Shown here piece by piece: positions 27,233 through 38,701 of a stretch of 64,000 nucleotides of DNA (position 1 is the stretch's first letter; every line of letters starts with the position of its first letter). Under the pieces are notes generated by a model. The model saw only the letters and a program-made list of their open reading frames with translations, ran no database searches and was not told the DNA's origin. The position numbers and the translations under genes were made by a program. This stretch comes from Haladaptatus sp. QDMS2. Lineage in GTDB: Archaea; Halobacteriota; Halobacteria; Halobacteriales; Halococcaceae. The DNA is taken from NCBI RefSeq assembly GCF_029338295.1, contig NZ_CP119791.1, positions 868,001 through 932,000 of the forward strand, given 5' to 3'.

Positions 27233-28788
27233 GCGCCACGCCAGTCGGCCGCGAGGTCGCCCACCGCCTGTTCGCGGCCGAGTTCGACGACGCCTCGCTT
27301 TCCTACTCCGAATCGGACGAGGAACGCGCGCCGAACTACGTCGTCACCCCGACCGGCGCACGGGTCAACCGGATGTTCGCCGTTGGCGTCCTCACGGAGG
27401 TCAATACGGTGAACGAAGACCAGCTGCGCGCCCGCATCGTCGACCCGACCGGCGCGTTCGTGGTCTACGCCGGCCAGTACCAGCCAGAGGCGCTCACGTT
27501 CCTCGAAAACGCCGCCGTCCCGACGTTCGTCGCGGTGACGGGCAAGGCACGGACCTTCGAACCGGAGGACTCCGACCGCGTCTACACGTCCATCCGGCCC
27601 GAGAGCATCAGCGAGGTGGACGCAGAGACCCGAGAGCGGTGGACGGTCACCACCGCAGAGCGCACCTTAGAACGCATCGAAACGTTCGCCGGGGCGCTCG
27701 ACGTGGACGCCCGCGGTGAAGACCTGCGTGCGCAGTTGCTCGCACAGGGAGTAAGCGAGAGTCTCGCCGCGGGCATCCCGAAGGCAATCGAACATTACGG
27801 CACCACGAAGGCTTACCTCGAAGCGATGGAGACGCTCGCGACGCAAGCACTCGAAGTCGTCACCGGCGACCGCGACTCGGTTCCGTCGTTCGATGCGGAG
27901 CCGTCGATGGCCGGCCCGGAGACGCCAAAACGCGTCCGCTCGTTCGAGTCGGTCGAGACGGCCGCAGACGCCGATTCAGCAGGGGCAGACGCCGTCGAAG
28001 CGGAAGTAGAAGCCGAACTCGAAGTCGACGGCGACGATTCTGCGGCCGTGGCCGAGACGACGGAACCCGAACCGAGCGACGTCGAAACCGACGAACCAGT
28101 CATCGAGGACAGTCCGCCCGAGGAGTCAGAACAAGTCGTCGAAACGGAGCCAGCCATCGACACGGAACCACCTGAAGACGACGCGACTGGTACGGTTCCC
28201 GAGGCCGAACCCGTCGACGCTGCGGAGGCGACGGCGACGAGGCAGGGGGAACCGGACGACGATGTGGACGACGCACTCGGCGAACCAGCCGAGAACGCAC
28301 TCGATGAGGTGGCGGAGTCAGTCTCGGACCCGGACGACGACGTGGAGGACTTCGACCCCGGCGAGGTAGACGAGATGTACGAGATGGACGAGGAAGAGCG
28401 CCAGCAGGTCGAAGAAGAGTTCGGCACGGAGTTCTCGACGGGCTCTGAAGTCGGCCCCGCGGGCGAGGCGGGCATCGACGTGCCAGACCCCGAAGAAGTC
28501 GAAGCAGAGGCGGCTGAAACGGCCGCCGAACCGGAACCCGAACCTGAAGCCGACGAACCGGAAGCAGAAACCGACTCCGAAGCAGATGGTGACGTGGACC
28601 TCGAAGACGCCGTCCTCTCGGCCATGCGCGAACTCGACGACGGCGACGGTGCGGACCGCGAAGCCGTCATCGCCGCCGTGGTCGAAGAACACGGTGTGGC
28701 CGTCGACGCCGTCGAAGACGCGATTCAGGACGCGCTCATGGACGGCCAGTGCTACGAACCTGACGAGAACACGCTGACCGCCATCTGA
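27229..28788 (+). CDS. rpap1: RPA-associated protein with OB fold, long acidic linker and C-terminal winged helix
   Basis: Known as the partner encoded after RPA in haloarchaea. The 519-residue protein has an OB fold (residues about 10-130; GARVNRMFAVGVLTEVN), a helical segment to about 215, then roughly 250 residues of Asp/Glu/Ala/Pro-rich low-complexity sequence, and a winged-helix-like end (DLEDAVLSAMRELDDGDGAD, in part). It starts inside the ATGA that ends rpa1 and overlaps the phosphoesterase by 1 base, so all three are coupled. The linker is much longer than in the homologues I recall. Confidence 0.88.
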   Translation: MSATPVGREVAHRLFAAEFDDASLSYSESDEERAPNYVVTPTGARVNRMFAVGVLTEVNTVNEDQLRARIVDPTGAFVVYAGQYQPEALTFLENAAVPTFVAVTGKARTFEPEDSDRVYTSIRPESISEVDAETRERWTVTTAERTLERIETFAGALDVDARGEDLRAQLLAQGVSESLAAGIPKAIEHYGTTKAYLEAMETLATQALEVVTGDRDSVPSFDAEPSMAGPETPKRVRSFESVETAADADSAGADAVEAEVEAELEVDGDDSAAVAETTEPEPSDVETDEPVIEDSPPEESEQVVETEPAIDTEPPEDDATGTVPEAEPVDAAEATATRQGEPDDDVDDALGEPAENALDEVAESVSDPDDDVEDFDPGEVDEMYEMDEEERQQVEEEFGTEFSTGSEVGPAGEAGIDVPDPEEVEAEAAETAAEPEPEPEADEPEAETDSEADGDVDLEDAVLSAMRELDDGDGADREAVIAAVVEEHGVAVDAVEDAIQDALMDGQCYEPDENTLTAI

Positions 28789-29531
28789 TGGCGAGTTCGG
28801 TCGAGCCGATTCCGGGGCAGGCGGCGGCGATAGCTGACCTGTCCGGGGAGCGTGCGCTCGTCGTCGCCGACTACCACGCGGGCCTCGAAGTCGCCCTCCG
28901 GTGGGATGGCGTTTCCGTCCCGAGCAAGGCCCCAGAGCGACGCGAGCAGCTCGTCCGCCTGCGAGAGGAATCGAACACAGACCGCGTCATCGTTTTAGGT
29001 GACTTCGGCAACGCAATCGGCGCAGGCTCGAACGAAGAAATCGAGGAAATTCACACGCTCCTCGCCGCCCTCGACTGCCCCGTAACCGTCGTCAAGGGCA
29101 ACCACGACGGCGATATCGAGGAACATATCGATGGCATCGACGTGACGCCCGCCCACGGCATCCGCCTCGGTGATGTTGGCTTCGCCCACGGTCACACCTG
29201 GCCGGCCCCAGACGTTCTCGACGCCGAGATTCTCTGTACCGCCCACGAACATCCACAGGTCAGACTGACCGACGACGTGGGTGGGCAGCGCACCGAGCGC
29301 GTCTGGCTTCGCGGGACGGTGGACCCTGCGCCGTTCGCGGAGTTCCACGGCCGCGAGTTCGACGGCGGCGCGCCGTTCGTCGTCTTCCCGGCGTTCAACG
29401 ACCTCGTCGGCGGGACGTGGGTGAACGTCCAAGAAGATGGCTTTCTCTCGCCGTTTCTCCCCGCGGGTCTCCGCGACGGCGAGGCCTATCTGCTCGATGG
29501 GACTCGGCTCGGGAACTACGACCGAATCTGA
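28788..29531 (+). CDS. RPA-operon metallophosphoesterase
   Basis: Calcineurin-like phosphoesterase of 247 residues, third gene of the RPA operon. Metal motifs are present: DYHAG (D-x-H) near residue 28, GDFGN near 66, GNHDGD near 104, HGH near 128 and a later TAHEHP. Its substrate is unknown; the conserved placement after RPA genes suggests a role in DNA metabolism. It starts on the last base of the previous stop codon. Confidence 0.9.
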   Translation: MASSVEPIPGQAAAIADLSGERALVVADYHAGLEVALRWDGVSVPSKAPERREQLVRLREESNTDRVIVLGDFGNAIGAGSNEEIEEIHTLLAALDCPVTVVKGNHDGDIEEHIDGIDVTPAHGIRLGDVGFAHGHTWPAPDVLDAEILCTAHEHPQVRLTDDVGGQRTERVWLRGTVDPAPFAEFHGREFDGGAPFVVFPAFNDLVGGTWVNVQEDGFLSPFLPAGLRDGEAYLLDGTRLGNYDRI

Positions 29532-32423: not shown

Positions 32424-33254
32424 TCAGGTGAGGTGCGGTCGCGGGTACCTCCGCGCCCAACGGGCGAGTTGGAAGGCGTGTTCGAGGAAGTCGAGGTACT
32501 CCCGTAGAGACAGCTTCGACTCGCCGTGCTCGCGTTGGTGGAACACGTAGGGAACGTCGACGACGAGCGTGTACTCACACCGAACGAGGAGTTCGAGAAG
32601 AATCTTGTAGCCGATCGGAGCGAGCGTCACTCCGGAGACGAGCTCCCGTCGAAACGCGAAGAAGCCGCTCATCGGGTCGGTCACGCTTCGCACCTGCGGG
32701 ATGAGGAGTTTTGCGATGACGAGCGCTCCACGACTTACGAACCGCCGGTACGGCGACCAGTTCTCAATGCCGCCGCCGGCGGTGTATCTGCTGGCGATGG
32801 CGATGTCAGCCCCCGACTCGAGGGCCGCGAGGAGCGCCGGAATCTTCTCTGGTGGGTGTTGCAAGTCCGCGTCGAGGATTACACAGCAGTCGTACGTCGC
32901 GGCGCGGATACCGTGTGAGACTGCCGTCGCGAGCCCACGCTCCTCGGTTCGTCGGATGACGCGTATTCGACTGTCACCTGCGTACACGGTACTCACAACT
33001 CGCCAGGTGCCATCCGGCGAGTCGTCGTCCACGATAACGATCTCGAACGGATGGCCGGCGAGTGCCGTTCGACACCGGTCTATCACGCGTTCGACGTTCT
33101 CGGATTCGTTATACGTTGGGATGATAACCGACACCGAAAGGCCACTCGTTGTCTTCACCGACTCGTCGTACGTTCGGTCTTCTCTAACTGCTCCCTGCTG
33201 AACCGGTGGTCGGGTAGGTAGCTGGGCTGCCGGTGGCGCTGTTGACGTTGCCAT
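32424..33254 (-). CDS. GT2 glycosyltransferase, DPM1/GtrB-like, soluble form
   Basis: Transfers a sugar from a nucleotide donor to polyprenyl (dolichyl) phosphate. The 276-residue protein has a disordered 40-residue N-terminus, then IIPTYNESENV, the DDDSPDGTW acidic motif, DADLQHPPEKIPAL and the substrate loop (DPMSGFFAFR), and ends FHQREHGESKLSLREYLDF, the DPM1 C-terminal signature. There are no transmembrane spans, unlike bacterial GtrB. It is divergent from a GT4-GtrA/DUF2079-sulfatase-like operon, so it probably supplies the lipid-linked sugar. Confidence 0.9.
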   Translation of the reverse strand: MATSTAPPAAQLPTRPPVQQGAVREDRTYDESVKTTSGLSVSVIIPTYNESENVERVIDRCRTALAGHPFEIVIVDDDSPDGTWRVVSTVYAGDSRIRVIRRTEERGLATAVSHGIRAATYDCCVILDADLQHPPEKIPALLAALESGADIAIASRYTAGGGIENWSPYRRFVSRGALVIAKLLIPQVRSVTDPMSGFFAFRRELVSGVTLAPIGYKILLELLVRCEYTLVVDVPYVFHQREHGESKLSLREYLDFLEHAFQLARWARRYPRPHLT

Positions 33255-33727
33255 CTTCGCTCGTTGAGAGAGCCAAGTGCAGACCCGCGTAAAAACGCCG
33301 AATATCGTTCACGAATATGGGTCCGCGTTAATTGCCGTCGTATTCACAGTGTATGGAAAAACGGAGTGTTATAGATCATCGTACCAACTCGTTGTGGTGA
33401 GACGGTCACGTTCGCAAGCAGGTAGACTCACGGTGTAACCAGCGCGGGTAGCCGTCACGCCATCGCTTTTTTCGGGCGATTGCTCGTCCGGCCTGTGCCC
33501 ATGAGCATCTGGGTTCAGGGCAGGCTGAGTGTCGAGAGTACTGGACCGTTATCGCCAATCGTTCCAGTTGTGTTTCCGTTCACACGACCCCGTTAATCGA
33601 CCTCCATTCCTGACCGACAGAATTAACAGAAGTATACTAATCACGTCGCTTCTCCTCCCTACGGGACAATGGAGAGTCAGCGATCTCGTACGTTCTGTGC
33701 GCAGGTTCTATTCGACGTAGAGGGCTA
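33255..33727. other. AT-rich divergent intergenic region of the glycan locus
   Basis: Nothing protein-coding is credible here. The 473 bases are clearly poorer in GC than the flanking genes and hold the divergent promoters. Notable elements: a TTTTTACGC stretch on the minus strand near 33280-33295, an imperfect palindrome ATATCGT...ACGAATAT (33301-33318), and an ATCGC/GCGAT pair enclosing TTTTTTCGG (33464-33482). A 63-codon plus frame at 33529-33720 has no recognisable content. Regulatory function is inference. Confidence 0.5.
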
Positions 33728-34738
33728 ATGCGCGTCGTCCTCTGTCCCCACCTCTCGCTCGAACACTATCGCGGGGGTGAAAAATGGACCGCAGCACTCG
33801 CAAACCGCCTGGTCGAAGATGGCGTCTCGGTCGCCGTCCGAGCGCTCCCCTACGCGCCCGATGGAGTCAGACGGGTCGCCGTCCGCGACGTCCTCGACAG
33901 CCGTGTCTCCTACCGGGAGGCCTGGCACCACGACCTCTCGGCGTTCGACACTGCGTACCTCTTCTACAATCCTCTCTCGCAGTTGTTTTTTACCGGGGCA
34001 CCTCGGTACGTCGCGGGTATCCACTCGTGGCTGTTCGTCACCGACAGACTGTACGAACCGTTCTACGGCGTCGTTCCCACTGGCGTCAAACTCCTCTACC
34101 GGCTGGTAGGTCCGCTCGACTTACGGCGATTCGACGTCGTCCACTCGGTCACGCGGGCCTACCGCGCTGTCCACCCGCGGACGGTGTACATTCCGAACTT
34201 CGTGGATACCCATCGTTTCTCTCCCGACCGCGCTCCGCTCGCATCCGAATTTACGATTCTCGTGACGGCGGCGCACATCCCCGAGAAGGGGTGGGACCTC
34301 GTCAGGGAGACGGCAGACCGGTTGCCGATGGACATGCGCCTCGTCACGACGGGAACGTGCGACGATGCGCGCATCGACGGTCTCGGGTTCGTCACCGAGG
34401 ACGAACTGGCGATGGCGTACGCTCGCGCACACGTCGTCTTGCACCCGGCGCGAGTGGACACCGACAGCATGGTGATAAACGAGGCGTGTGCGTCTGGAAC
34501 TCCGGTCATCACCACGCCAATCGCGACCCATCTGCCGGCAACAGACGCGGTGCTTCACGCCGAAACGGTAGAGGAGATATTCATACATCTCCGATTGCTT
34601 CGAACGGAGTGGGAACAGAACACCGGCTACACGGCGCGGTGTGAAGCTGCCCGCGCTGCCGGAGAAGCTCACGATTTCGACCTCATCTACCCGCAGCTCA
34701 AATCACTGCTTCTCGGTTCCGGAGGAGAGGCCGCGTGA
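33728..34738 (+). CDS. GT4 family glycosyltransferase
   Basis: GT-B fold retaining transferase of 336 residues. N-terminal half opens VVLCPHLSLEHYRGGEKW with the Gly-rich acceptor loop; the donor half has IPNFVDTHRFSPD, TAAHIPEKGWDL and the family's acidic motif (MVINEACASGTPVITT; Glu-x7 pattern). It probably extends a lipid-linked or nucleotide-linked glycan in the cytoplasm. It overlaps the next gene by 4 bases (GTGA), so it is the first member of a coupled three-gene operon. Confidence 0.88.
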   Translation: MRVVLCPHLSLEHYRGGEKWTAALANRLVEDGVSVAVRALPYAPDGVRRVAVRDVLDSRVSYREAWHHDLSAFDTAYLFYNPLSQLFFTGAPRYVAGIHSWLFVTDRLYEPFYGVVPTGVKLLYRLVGPLDLRRFDVVHSVTRAYRAVHPRTVYIPNFVDTHRFSPDRAPLASEFTILVTAAHIPEKGWDLVRETADRLPMDMRLVTTGTCDDARIDGLGFVTEDELAMAYARAHVVLHPARVDTDSMVINEACASGTPVITTPIATHLPATDAVLHAETVEEIFIHLRLLRTEWEQNTGYTARCEAARAAGEAHDFDLIYPQLKSLLLGSGGEAA

Positions 34739-37167
34739 GTGTAGTCACTGAATTTCTGCAAGCGCGACTCCCGGTCGAATCCCAGACGCGCCGGTTCGTC
34801 CAATACCTGCTGGTCGGCGTGCTTGGACTCGCGATCAACGAAGGGACGCTCTTTCTCGTCACGTCGGTCGCCGGGGCGTCCTACGTCATTGGCGGCGTCC
34901 TCGGACGGGTCGTGAGCATCCTCGCAAACTACGCGGTAAACGACGTCTGGACGTGGCGCTCTCGCGGCGACCCGGGCGCTAGGAACTGGCTCCTGCGGGG
35001 CGGGAAGTACGTCCTCACGCGCGTTGTCGGCATCGCTATCGGACTCGCCACGCTCATCGTCCTGGTCGAACTGTTCTCGATGCACTACCTCATCGCGAAC
35101 GTACTCGCGGTTGGGGTCGGCGTTATCTGGGGGTTCGGAGCGAGCGACCGCTGGGTTTGGCCCACGACGGCGAGCGTCCCTGTCACCGACCGGGTCGAGA
35201 CGCTCTGGACGCGAACGGCGGCTACCCGTCGCCGGTTTTGGACGCGACTCGGAGCGATAGACCGGCCGACGTGGTATGTCATCGGTCTCGCCGGCGTGCT
35301 GTTCGTCTGGTTCTCGTTTTACACCAGCCTCCTCTATCGAGGCTACATCCTCACCGGTGCCGACCTCGGCACGTACGTCCACATGTTCTCGACCACGCTG
35401 GACGGCCACGGCTGGCTCTTACAGGGGAAATATCGCGTTAGCCACCCCGGTGGTTCCTACTGGGGGGCACACTTTACGCTCACGCTGCTCGCCTTCCTCG
35501 TGCCGTACGCAATCGCTCCCTCCGCGATAACGCTTCTCGTCGCGAAGGCGTTCGTCTTAGCGGCGAGCATTCCCCTGTGCTGGCTGGTCGTCCGGACGCA
35601 CGTTGCTGACGTTCGCCTCGCTGGCCTCGTGACGGTTTCCTACGCGTTCAATCCTTTCTTCTGGTCTGCGTGGTCGTTCGACTTCCAGGAACAGGCAGTC
35701 TTGCCGCTGCTCATCTTTCTCACCTACTACGCGTTCGTCAAGGGGCGCGACGCGCTCTTTCTCGGCGCGTTTTCGCTGATGGTGCTCACCAACGAGTTCA
35801 TGATTTTCATCGCCTTTGGCTTCCTCGTTGGCCTCACGTTGCTGAGTCATCGCGAGAACAGGCTCGCGTCTCGCTCCCGAATGCTCGGCTCGGGTTTCGT
35901 CATCGCCGTCGGCGCACAACTGCTCGCCGGCTACGTCATCTCTCAGTTCAGCGTCGAATCCGGCATCCCCACCCGGGCGGTTGCTGTTCCCTTCCAGCAG
36001 TACATCGAGGGGACCCGAGTCGCGGTCGGCAGCCTCGTCGGCATCGTTCTCGCCCACCCTCAGGTGCTCATCGACTCGCTGTCCATCAGTCTCTCTGCTA
36101 AGTTCCTGTTCTTCATCGCGCTGCTGTTACCGGTGGCGTTTCTCTCGCTCACGGACGAACTGACGCTCTCGTCGCTCACGCCGTATCTCCTCTTCGCGTG
36201 GTTCCTCGGCCACAAGCAGGCGTACTTCGCCTTTGGTGCCCACTACCCGTTCTACTTCTTGCCCGTGCTCTACATCGGAACTGCGCGGATTCTCTCTCGC
36301 GTCCAGTTGCCGCGTCTCTCCCGGGAGACGGCGAGTCGAGCGCTGGTGTACGTCATCTTACTCAACGTGGCGAGCGGACTCATTATCGCCGGCGGGAACA
36401 TCCAGCCGTTCCCCGTCATCGACGACCACACCCGGACGCTCGACGCGGCAATAGCCACGGTTCCCGAGGATGCGACGTTGGTGACTCAGAACAACATCTA
36501 TCCGCACGTCGCAAATCGCCCCGGTGCCTCTTTCATCATCAGCCCGTACGAAATCGAGGTGTATCAGGCTGCGTACGGAGTGCTCACGCCGGAGTACGTG
36601 CTCTACGATTCCCAATCGAAGTGGGCGCGCGTCGTCGAAGACACGTTCGTAGACCGTCTCGACGGAGAGTACAGTCTGTACCGGTACGAAGACGGTATCT
36701 GGGTGTTCAAGCGAGGGTACGACGGCCAAGCGACGACGATAACGTCCGGTGAACCTCTCTCGTGGTTCGCGGGCACAGAGCGGCGGTACGATGCACAAAC
36801 CCTCTCGGTCGGGTCGGGAACCCAGGTCGAAGGGACTATCGTCGGAGGCGGTGGGCCTCCAGGCGAAGCCATCTGGTACGGACCCTACGAGACGCTCGCA
36901 CCGGGAATCTACACGGTGACCTACCGCGTGTTCGTAGCGGGAGAGACGACCGGCTCGGTCGCTCGCCTCGACGTGGTCGGCGGCGAGGACCACCGCGTGC
37001 TCACCAGAAAGACGGTCATGCCGGCGAATCGCTGGCAAGAGGTGACGACCACCTTCACGCTCACGCGACCCCAGTCGAAAGTCGAGTTCCGCGGTCACTC
37101 GACCGGGAGAGCGGGAACCGTCACGCTCGATTGGGTCAGAATCGAACGCCGGGAGGCCACATCGTGA
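34735..37167 (+). CDS. GtrA - DUF2079 (GT-C-like) - beta-sandwich fusion membrane protein
   Basis: An 810-residue three-part protein starting with GTG 34735. Residues 15-145 are a GtrA domain (four spans; FVQYLLVGVLGLAINEGTLF, then NYAVNDVWTWRS), the type that flips polyprenyl-linked sugars. Residues about 180-560 match DUF2079, with GADLGTYVHMF, GAHFTLTLLAFLVP, FDFQEQAVLPL, TNEFMI and FGAHYPFYFLPVLY: a GT-C-like multi-span enzyme with likely acidic catalytic Asp210. The C-terminal about 150 residues form a secreted-looking beta-sandwich (YGPYETLAPGIYTVTYRV) like carbohydrate-binding modules. Each half is normally a separate protein. Confidence 0.85.
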   Translation: MSVVTEFLQARLPVESQTRRFVQYLLVGVLGLAINEGTLFLVTSVAGASYVIGGVLGRVVSILANYAVNDVWTWRSRGDPGARNWLLRGGKYVLTRVVGIAIGLATLIVLVELFSMHYLIANVLAVGVGVIWGFGASDRWVWPTTASVPVTDRVETLWTRTAATRRRFWTRLGAIDRPTWYVIGLAGVLFVWFSFYTSLLYRGYILTGADLGTYVHMFSTTLDGHGWLLQGKYRVSHPGGSYWGAHFTLTLLAFLVPYAIAPSAITLLVAKAFVLAASIPLCWLVVRTHVADVRLAGLVTVSYAFNPFFWSAWSFDFQEQAVLPLLIFLTYYAFVKGRDALFLGAFSLMVLTNEFMIFIAFGFLVGLTLLSHRENRLASRSRMLGSGFVIAVGAQLLAGYVISQFSVESGIPTRAVAVPFQQYIEGTRVAVGSLVGIVLAHPQVLIDSLSISLSAKFLFFIALLLPVAFLSLTDELTLSSLTPYLLFAWFLGHKQAYFAFGAHYPFYFLPVLYIGTARILSRVQLPRLSRETASRALVYVILLNVASGLIIAGGNIQPFPVIDDHTRTLDAAIATVPEDATLVTQNNIYPHVANRPGASFIISPYEIEVYQAAYGVLTPEYVLYDSQSKWARVVEDTFVDRLDGEYSLYRYEDGIWVFKRGYDGQATTITSGEPLSWFAGTERRYDAQTLSVGSGTQVEGTIVGGGGPPGEAIWYGPYETLAPGIYTVTYRVFVAGETTGSVARLDVVGGEDHRVLTRKTVMPANRWQEVTTTFTLTRPQSKVEFRGHSTGRAGTVTLDWVRIERREATS

Positions 37168-38507
37168 ACATTCTTCTCATCACCATCGATGCGTGGCGGG
37201 CGTCGCACGCGTCGTTCAACCCCGGAAGCGACCCGACCTATACGCCGACCCTCGCCGCGTTCGCCGAGACGGGCACCGTATTCACGCAAGCGGTCAGCCA
37301 TGGTCCGTCGACACCCTACGCATTTCCCGCAGTGTTCTCCTCGTCGCTTCCGCTCGATTACGGCGGGTACGAGCGACTCAGCGACGAGCGTGTCCTCCTG
37401 AGCGAGGTGCTCTCGACCAACGGATATCGGTGCGTTGGCGTCCACGGCAACCCGTGGCTCGGTGGTAAGTACGGCTACGCCCGCGGCTACGACGAGTACC
37501 GCGACATCGGGGAGTTTTCAATCCCGTTTCTCGACAGTGGGCGAGAGGTCCTGATTCGACGATTCGGCCTCGACCACCCGGTCTACCGGATGGTTCAGTA
37601 CCTCTACCGGTACGCAAGCGACCCGATTCGCAGATTCTGGAGCGGCACGTCGGAGGTGGATGTGGCGCTCGAAGCGCTCGATTCGGCTGTGAGTGACCAG
37701 TTCACCTGGGTGCACATACTGACGCCGCACGCTCCTTACACCCCGCCAGCGCGTCACCGGGCCGCCGTTTCGATGCCCGCATTCTCCGGGTCGGCGACGA
37801 CGCTCGTCACGCGCGCTCAGCACGACCCAGAGCGCCTCACCGAACGCGAACGAGCAGTCGTCCGTGGACTCTACGCCGCTTCGGTTCGCCACGCGGACGA
37901 GCAGGTGGGCCGCCTGCTCGAACGCGTCCCTGACGACACGCTCGTCATCGTGACTGCAGACCACGGCGAGGCGCTGTTCGACCATGGTCAACTCGGGCAC
38001 GAACCGGCGTTGTACGACGAACTCATCCGCGTTCCATTGCTCGTTCGACCACCTGGTGGCCGCGCGGGGAGCGTCGGCACACAGGTCAGACACATCGATA
38101 TCGCCCCCACGATACTCGACTACGCCGGTATCGAGTCGCCCGCGTCGTTCATCGGTCGGTCGTTGCGTCCGGCAATCGAGGGCGCGGTGGACGTCGACCA
38201 GATCTCAATCGCCGAGGTGGCATCGACGGCGCAAACGCCCGGTCGAATCGACGCTGACGCGCTCCAAGTGTCTGTGCGGCTACCCCACCGAAAATTGCTG
38301 TACAGAAACGGGACGACGGTCGGGTTTGATCTCACGACCGACGCGACAGAACAGCACCCCATCTCGGACCGTACGGGCGTCGAGTGGGACCCGCTCAAAA
38401 CGGCGCTTGCAGATCGGTTGGCTTCGCTCGACGTTCGGAGCGGCGCACGGATCGACTACGACCCGCGAACAGAGGAACGACTGCGAGACCTCGGCTATCT
38501 CGACTGA
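37164..38507 (+). CDS. Sulfatase-fold (alkaline phosphatase superfamily) enzyme without the Cys/Ser motif
   Basis: GTG at 37164 overlaps the previous TGA, so the gene is coupled. The 447-residue protein has ITIDAWRASH (Asp9 metal ligand), a TADHGEALFDHGQLGHE metal cluster near 265 and a C-terminal FDLTTDATEQHP segment as in sulfatases. The catalytic C/S-x-P-S-R motif is absent: residues 46-50 read HGPST (with flanking V44-S45-H46), so formylglycine cannot form. Ser49 or Thr50 could be a nucleophile, so a phospho- or other group transferase or hydrolase acting on the glycan is more likely. Confidence 0.82.
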   Translation: MNILLITIDAWRASHASFNPGSDPTYTPTLAAFAETGTVFTQAVSHGPSTPYAFPAVFSSSLPLDYGGYERLSDERVLLSEVLSTNGYRCVGVHGNPWLGGKYGYARGYDEYRDIGEFSIPFLDSGREVLIRRFGLDHPVYRMVQYLYRYASDPIRRFWSGTSEVDVALEALDSAVSDQFTWVHILTPHAPYTPPARHRAAVSMPAFSGSATTLVTRAQHDPERLTERERAVVRGLYAASVRHADEQVGRLLERVPDDTLVIVTADHGEALFDHGQLGHEPALYDELIRVPLLVRPPGGRAGSVGTQVRHIDIAPTILDYAGIESPASFIGRSLRPAIEGAVDVDQISIAEVASTAQTPGRIDADALQVSVRLPHRKLLYRNGTTVGFDLTTDATEQHPISDRTGVEWDPLKTALADRLASLDVRSGARIDYDPRTEERLRDLGYLD

Positions 38508-38701
38508 CTATTCGACTGGCGGGTCTTTTTTGAGGACGGTTCACCTTGTGGACAGTGGACCAGTTTCACCGGATGAATGTAGTGTCCACAGGGCCTGAAC
38601 ACGCCGTTGTCGGGCCCACTGATGATTGTTCCAGTGACTGGCCTGTCGCAAACGGGACAGGAGCGAAGGTACGTGAGTTTGGGTGTGTTTCTCTCCCGCA
38701 T
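38495..38701 (-). CDS. 68-residue CPxC / CGH zinc-finger protein
   Basis: The protein has CPVC (residues 15-18) and PCGHYIHP (37-44), giving three Cys and two His for zinc, and a Ser/Lys/Gln-rich tail. A TATA box at 38723-38730 on the minus strand, TAGTATATT, is 26 bases before the ATG at 38701, so a leaderless message is likely. The gene's end overlaps the end of the opposite-strand sulfatase-fold gene by 13 bases. Function unknown. Confidence 0.7.
   Translation of the reverse strand: MRERNTPKLTYLRSCPVCDRPVTGTIISGPDNGVFRPCGHYIHPVKLVHCPQGEPSSKKTRQSNSQSR
38526..38531 (+). terminator. T6 tract ending the glycan operon
   Basis: A run of six T residues 19 bases after the sulfatase-fold gene stop is a suitable archaeal terminator. 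It lies within the antisense coding region of the zinc-finger gene (38495-38701). Confidence 0.45.

Follow-up and report, generated by a model that had tools for sequence, protein, structure and literature searches.

In Haloferax volcanii, AglD, AglR and AglS are the dolichyl-phosphate (Dol-P)-mannose synthase, the proposed flippase and the Dol-P-mannose mannosyltransferase of the N-glycan, respectively (PMC3871713). The bacterial GtrA-GtrB-Gtr(type) systems, including those of lipoteichoic and wall teichoic acids (GtcA, CsbB/YfhO), combine a GT-A polyprenyl-phosphate-sugar synthase, a GtrA-family protein and a GT-C transferase (PMC8035078). Here we describe a locus of four genes in a window (the whole stretch of DNA that was analysed) of 64,000 nucleotides from the haloarchaeon Haladaptatus sp. 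QDMS2 (NZ_CP119791.1, positions 868,001 to 932,000). The genes encode a glycosyltransferase of family GT2, a glycosyltransferase of family GT4, a fusion of a GtrA domain, a DUF2079 domain and a carbohydrate-binding module (CBM), and a sulfatase-fold enzyme. By analogy, the best reading of this cassette is an archaeal counterpart of the AglD-AglR-AglS and Gtr decoration pathways. We consider it fairly probable that it is a portable surface-glycan decoration cassette, by which a sugar would be loaded on a lipid carrier, cross the membrane and be attached to a surface glycan. This reading draws on the order and domain families of the genes, on their predicted folds and co-occurrence, and on an empty site and a plasmid copy; from these we infer the steps of the mechanism.

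The pathway logic is shared with AglD-AglR-AglS, which is also archaeal: mannose is attached to Dol-P by a glycosyltransferase and, once across the membrane, is added to the exported glycan by another enzyme. However, those three proteins are encoded by separate genes, with aglD lying outside the agl cluster, and they have not been reported in one cassette together with a GtrA-GT-C fusion, a GT4 or a sulfatase-fold enzyme. Because this counterpart was already known, the locus does not represent a new kind of archaeal Gtr-like decoration. With the bacterial Gtr systems, the cassette has in common the three protein classes listed above, as well as horizontal mobility (serotype-converting phage in Shigella). 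It should be noted that these classes are encoded together here as families, not as orthologs of the Shigella Gtr proteins. In bacteria they are three separate proteins and the GT2 is membrane-anchored, whereas the cassette has a soluble GT2 and a GtrA domain joined to a CBM-bearing GT-C of the DUF2079 family, with GT4 and the sulfatase-fold enzyme as additions. In another difference, no relative turned up when viral contigs were scanned with the fusion protein and with the sulfatase alignment, and a viral origin of the cassette was rejected.

Three further systems resemble single parts of the locus. The Dol-P-mannose synthase of Pyrococcus furiosus (PfDPMS, 5mlz) has the same GT2 catalytic domain and GtrA_DPMS_TM family, but combines both halves in one protein, whereas the cassette encodes the halves separately and joins the membrane half to the enzyme that acts next in the pathway. 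ORF12 of Citrobacter, a GT136 enzyme, is like the fusion a GT-C protein with a CBM and a polyprenyl-phosphate sugar donor (PMC11127046); however, it belongs to another GT-C family and is associated with a MATE flippase, a pentofuranose donor and a bacterial O antigen. Finally, Agl30 and Agl31 of Halobacterium salinarum (VNG1056C/VNG1057C) are, like the cassette enzyme, haloarchaeal sulfatase-fold proteins encoded in a glycan cluster. 6HHM, the best structural match of the cytosolic Agl31, also ranks among the best matches of the cassette protein. The two Halobacterium genes lie in the aglB cluster, whereas the cassette gene is part of a mobile set, and the cassette proteins form their own group of ~60% identity. 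New features of the locus are the fusion of the domains, the division of the synthase, the use of DUF2079 and the mobile format of four genes. In the literature searched, no paper mentions DUF2079, and no report of a GtrA-GT-C fusion was found in a search that was mostly at the level of titles and abstracts.

The GT2 protein matched PF00535 (1.5e-39, Pfam) and residues 22-252 of PfDPMS (6.2e-76), compared to 1.1e-18 for the next solved family. Motifs of the DDxSPD and DADLQHPPE types are present and are invariant in 14 relatives, and the gene is the sole strong match to this synthase type in the genome (616 bits, versus 47 bits for the next match). The earlier assignment as a DPM1/GtrB-like GT2 is therefore well founded, and by sequence the protein is the catalytic half of a dolichyl-phosphate-mannose synthase type enzyme. 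Unlike PfDPMS and GtrB, it has no transmembrane half of its own, its C-terminus falling at the boundary between the catalytic and transmembrane parts of PfDPMS. Residues 248-361 of PfDPMS align to the N-terminus of the fusion, i.e., the GtrA domain (1.6e-6). By these two alignments, a known enzyme is divided between the first and third genes, and the membrane half missing from GT2 is, as judged by this alignment, the domain fused to GT-C.

This N-terminal domain matched GtrA_DPMS_TM (PF04138) at 6.2e-22, with 78.4 bits against a curated cut-off of 26.1, over profile positions 1-117, which is the whole four-helix domain of ~117 residues. In the same polypeptide of 810 amino acids, DUF2079 (PF09852) was found at 4.1e-45 over residues 207-656 (155.2 bits, cut-off 28.2); thus, both profile searches proposed in the initial annotation bear out its claim of a GtrA-DUF2079 fusion. 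We built a structure model from 25 cassette sequences (predicted local distance difference test, pLDDT, 82), in which four GtrA helices are followed by a linker helix, a multi-transmembrane domain that includes a soluble subdomain and, at the C-terminus, a beta-sandwich. The linker (residues 141-176) is Arg-rich, which fits a cytoplasmic loop. Residues ~166-664 of the predicted model matched STT3 (8pn9; VIA Z 18.5, 420 residues, root-mean-square deviation, rmsd, 5.3) and ArnT (5f15; VIA Z 17.4, 420 residues, rmsd 5.0), followed by Pmt4 (Z 17.3), ALG12 (Z 17.3) and AglB (Z 17.0). The multi-transmembrane GT-C fold with an outer loop after the first transmembrane helix is present, and on this model DUF2079 is a GT-C fold, in agreement with the GT-C-like part that had been postulated. 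Asp210, in the first outer loop of the GT-C domain, is invariant in 20 of 20 DUF2079 sequences and is likely to be the catalytic base. The C-terminal residues ~680-808 of the model matched a porphyran CBM (8xmz; VIA Z 13.9, rmsd 2.3, 118 residues); the CBM6 profile match is weak here (0.056) and reaches 1.8e-4 in one relative. CBMs on GT-C enzymes have precedents in GT136 ORF12, EmbC and AftD (PMC11127046). This module had been overlooked earlier, as had the boundaries of the insertion, which are sharp (32425 and 38562).

We studied the distribution of the genes in a sample of 293 Halobacteriales genomes from 87 genera. Relatives were considered strong at E < 1e-100 for DUF2079, E < 1e-40 for GT4 and E < 1e-140 for the sulfatase-fold ortholog; these thresholds were set after a wide gap in scores was seen. 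Strong relatives of DUF2079 and of GT4 occur in an identical set of 17 genomes (7 genera), and the sulfatase-fold ortholog is found in 15 of the 17 (absent from G133, which is 72% complete, and from G154) and nowhere else in the sample. The probability of identical sets by chance is 7e-28 by genome and 2e-10 by genus, although the real figure is less extreme owing to relatedness. Elsewhere DUF2079 is rare, being present in 2 of 247 genomes sampled across the whole phylum. The four genes stand together in several genera, several of which keep the same overlaps, as the synteny search suggested earlier was meant to establish. The fused form was present in eight examined loci (the window, L032, L034, L036, L037, L038, L039 and L054). 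In L036, L037 and L039, GT2 heads the operon, with a 4-base overlap with GT4; this indicates that the divergent GT2 of the window belongs to the set. All sampled Halococcus genomes have a split form, in which the consecutive genes are GT4-GtrA-DUF2079-DUF2079 and, in most loci, those for the sulfatase-fold enzyme and GT2 are found nearby. Trees built from DUF2079 and from GtrA have support too weak to tell a single fusion event from a split in Halococcus.

Several other arrangements were observed. The Halegenticoccus loci L032 and L034 carry a second DUF2079 gene in addition to the fused form. Five Halococcus second loci (L072, L073, L074, L075 and L076) contain overlapping GT4 and DUF2079(+CBM) genes only, the smallest recurring pair; the stretches examined around them contain neither a GtrA nor a sulfatase-fold gene. 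A cassette-type GtrA frame (L019/L052, G040:C39:45203-45628; 43% identity, WGFGASEKWVW motif) has an in-frame stop and no partner genes nearby, and resembles what is left of a cassette that was lost. On a plasmid of Salinigranum rubrum (L055, 11923-13515 and neighbours), a lone DUF2079 gene lies by a surface glycoprotein gene, with LTA-synthase-family and glycosyltransferase genes further along.

In both same-genus genomes examined, the site is empty, with lhr and the XPD/DEAD_2 gene ~200 bp apart. Homology of the window to both empty sites ends at 32425, two bases past the lhr stop, and resumes at 38562; hence, the insert is ~6.1 kb and comprises exactly these four genes. No integrase is encoded within it. 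A plasmid of Halomarina sp. BCD28 (L054) has the complete cassette: GT4, GtrA-DUF2079 and sulfatase genes with 4-base overlaps, followed by a convergent polyprenol monophosphomannose synthase gene. The four genes are a compact transferable set. Given the patchy distribution and the plasmid copy, gain of the cassette is probably to be favoured over loss, although the genus is represented by three genomes. In Halegenticoccus tardaugens, a phage-integrase-family gene (L034, 7475-8776, plus strand) is directly upstream of the cassette.

GT4 matched PF13692 (5.5e-8, Pfam), and its motif residues (GGEKW, KGWD and D-x7-E) are invariant in 13 relatives; by sequence, it had no match among solved structures. 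The sulfatase-fold protein matched PF00884 (9e-36, Pfam), and its model has the S1 sulfatase fold (Z ~24.7-24.9 to 6hr5, 327 residues, and also to 6hhm). The sulfatase-fold call in the initial annotation is thus confirmed; sulfatase activity, conversely, is unlikely. Thr50 occupies the slot of the formylglycine Cys/Ser, and Phe54 replaces the Arg of CxPxR, both being invariant in 16 sequences; as C/S-x-P-x-R is absent, the reading as a true formylglycine sulfatase was rejected. Thr or Ser is found at the nucleophile slot in 14 further haloarchaeal relatives. Since no signal peptide and no transmembrane segment can be read from the sequence at the N-terminus, a cytoplasmic location is expected. 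The relatives that are not part of the cassette (33-39% identity) lie near aglB in L092, L094 and L095, and by flippase or glycosyltransferase genes in L091, L096 and L097. In the aglB cluster of Halobacterium, the sulfatase-fold proteins Agl30/31 were reported, on the basis of deletion and heterologous expression, to be glycan sulfotransferases (PMC11980604). From the shared fold, the predicted location and the setting of its relatives, we predict that the cassette enzyme is a glycan sulfotransferase rather than a sulfatase. The Thr-slot genes near aglB in L092, L094 and L095 are themselves candidate sulfotransferases of the Agl30/31 type.

The proposed mechanism is as follows. GT4 would act early, inside the cell, adding a sugar to a lipid-linked glycan, which the sulfatase-fold enzyme, also early and inside, would sulfate in the manner of Agl30/Agl31. 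At the inner face of the membrane, GT2 would make a dolichyl-phosphate hexose, probably mannose, and, having no membrane half, would dock on the GtrA/DPMS-type N-terminal domain of the fusion. The GtrA domain may hold the Dol-P-sugar and perhaps help to translocate it; alternatively, another flippase may bring it outside. On the outer face, the GT-C domain would use the Dol-P-sugar to transfer the hexose to the glycan, presumably with Asp210 as the base, while the CBM would hold the acceptor glycan. Fusion of the synthase membrane half to GT-C would couple the making of the activated sugar to its use. A stronger version, which we regard as speculative and rather unlikely, is a one-polypeptide machine that makes, passes and attaches: the sugar would go from GT2 to GT-C without release into the bilayer, and onto a sulfated glycan, the whole serving as a mobile surface-type switch of haloarchaea.

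Several points weigh against the decoration cassette. The donor sugar, the acceptor and the flipping are predicted; accordingly, of the complete Gtr-like module with all three activities that had been claimed, the GtrB, GtrA and GT-C families are present and co-inherited, whereas the activities are predictions. A conserved Asp within a GT-C fold is no proof of transfer, and Foldseek TM-scores of the full fusion are low (0.3-0.5), because the protein is multidomain. The link to Agl31 is one of fold, predicted location and the genomic setting of relatives, and the sulfation step may be dispensable, as the sulfatase-fold ortholog is missing from G154, a near-complete genome. The cassette GtrA domain is barely closer to PfDPMS than are standalone haloarchaeal GtrA proteins (34 versus 30 bits), which weakens the idea of a synthase-specific GtrA subfamily, and none is claimed. 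Finally, of the two residues essential in Listeria GtcA, R95 and N132 (PMC7389260), the position of N132 is Gly133 in 11 of 11 cassette domains, a correspondence inferred from spacing, which makes flipping doubtful.

This last point bears on the role of GtrA, for which the family is confirmed by profile, while the flippase function given to it earlier is less certain, as the domain may instead dock GT2. The GtrA half could be a pure anchor that recruits soluble GT2 to the membrane and to GT-C, with another protein of the AglR or MATE type flipping the Dol-P-sugar. This is a serious possibility, although we place it somewhat below an even chance. GtrA_DPMS_TM is the membrane half of PfDPMS, Rv3789 has been proposed as an anchor (PMC7389260), and a second GtrA gene (L002) exists in the same genome. 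However, the counterpart of R95, placed by spacing, is R96, invariant in 11 sequences; moreover, the Asn position also varies in other haloarchaeal GtrA proteins, from which Asn is absent too, so that its loss is not diagnostic.

The target might also be a glycolipid or a wall polysaccharide or exopolysaccharide, rather than an S-layer glycoprotein, which we entertain tentatively. Lipid glycosyltransferases are among the best profile matches of GT4, but all of these are weak (E 8e-5 or worse). The module is in every sampled genome of Halococcus, a genus with a thick and unusual wall (PMC13321033); however, six other genera carry it. In one Halococcus locus, an arylsulfotransferase-type gene (ASST, PF14269; L045, 12146-13471, minus strand) lies between the GT2 and sulfatase-fold genes, which fits a sulfated glycan target, whereas the aglB clusters in which relatives of the sulfatase-fold gene sit point away from a lipid or wall target. 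Alternatively, the sulfatase-fold enzyme could be a Thr-nucleophile phosphotransferase or phosphodiesterase, similar to phosphoethanolamine (PEtN) transferases or LtaS, which would add or remove a phospho group instead of sulfate. The Thr in the nucleophile slot and weak EptA/PEtN-transferase profile matches of the relative in L091 are consistent with this; the model, however, resembles S1 sulfatases throughout, and the haloarchaeal precedents of the same fold in glycan clusters, Agl30/31, are sulfotransferases, and we consider a phospho group the less likely option. That unrelated glycosylation genes merely stand side by side by chance, with a one-off fusion, is a reading in favour of which no point was found; it is ruled out as extremely improbable by synteny (conserved order and overlaps), the identical GT4/DUF2079 distribution and the recurrence of the fusion.

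Table 1. Features of the four-gene insert (window coordinates).
Feature	Position	Strand	Evidence
GT2, predicted dolichyl-phosphate hexose (mannose) synthase catalytic half, no transmembrane half	32424..33254	-	PF00535, PfDPMS 5mlz
GT4 glycosyltransferase, soluble	33728..34738	+	PF13692 5.5e-8, motif residues, genome distribution
GtrA_DPMS_TM - DUF2079 (GT-C) - CBM fusion, 810 aa, GTG start	34735..37167	+	PF04138, PF09852, model
GtrA / DPMS transmembrane domain, residues 23-142	34801..35160	+	PF04138 6.2e-22, PfDPMS 248-361
GT-C domain (DUF2079), residues ~166-664	35230..36726	+	PF09852 4.1e-45, fold matches, conservation
CBM-like beta-sandwich, C-terminal, residues ~680-808	36772..37158	+	8xmz fold match, weak CBM6 profile
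Sulfatase-fold (AlkP superfamily) enzyme, cytoplasmic (predicted), GTG start	37164..38507	+	PF00884 9e-36, Z ~24.7-24.9
Whole 6.1-kb insert, flanked by lhr and the XPD/DEAD_2 helicase gene	32426..38561	.	empty sites in two same-genus genomes

All four gene positions given in the initial annotation agree with the gene calls. Its 4-base overlaps are found, as GTGA, at both junctions of the plus-strand operon (GT4/fusion and fusion/sulfatase-fold); strictly, three genes give two overlaps. The gap between the divergent GT2 and GT4 genes is 473 bp, and promoter scans of it gave nothing informative. A calcineurin-like phosphoesterase gene (28788-29531 of the window) is immediately upstream of lhr, in the same direction.

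These results give DUF2079 a likely role and fold class, and the natural fusion is directly relevant to the dispute over whether GtrA flips or anchors. The small size of the four-gene set would make it easy to transfer into Haloferax volcanii for testing. In haloarchaea, genes for surface-glycan modification can move together as a cassette of four, much as in bacterial serotype conversion, and transfer of such a cassette could affect virus adsorption and mating.

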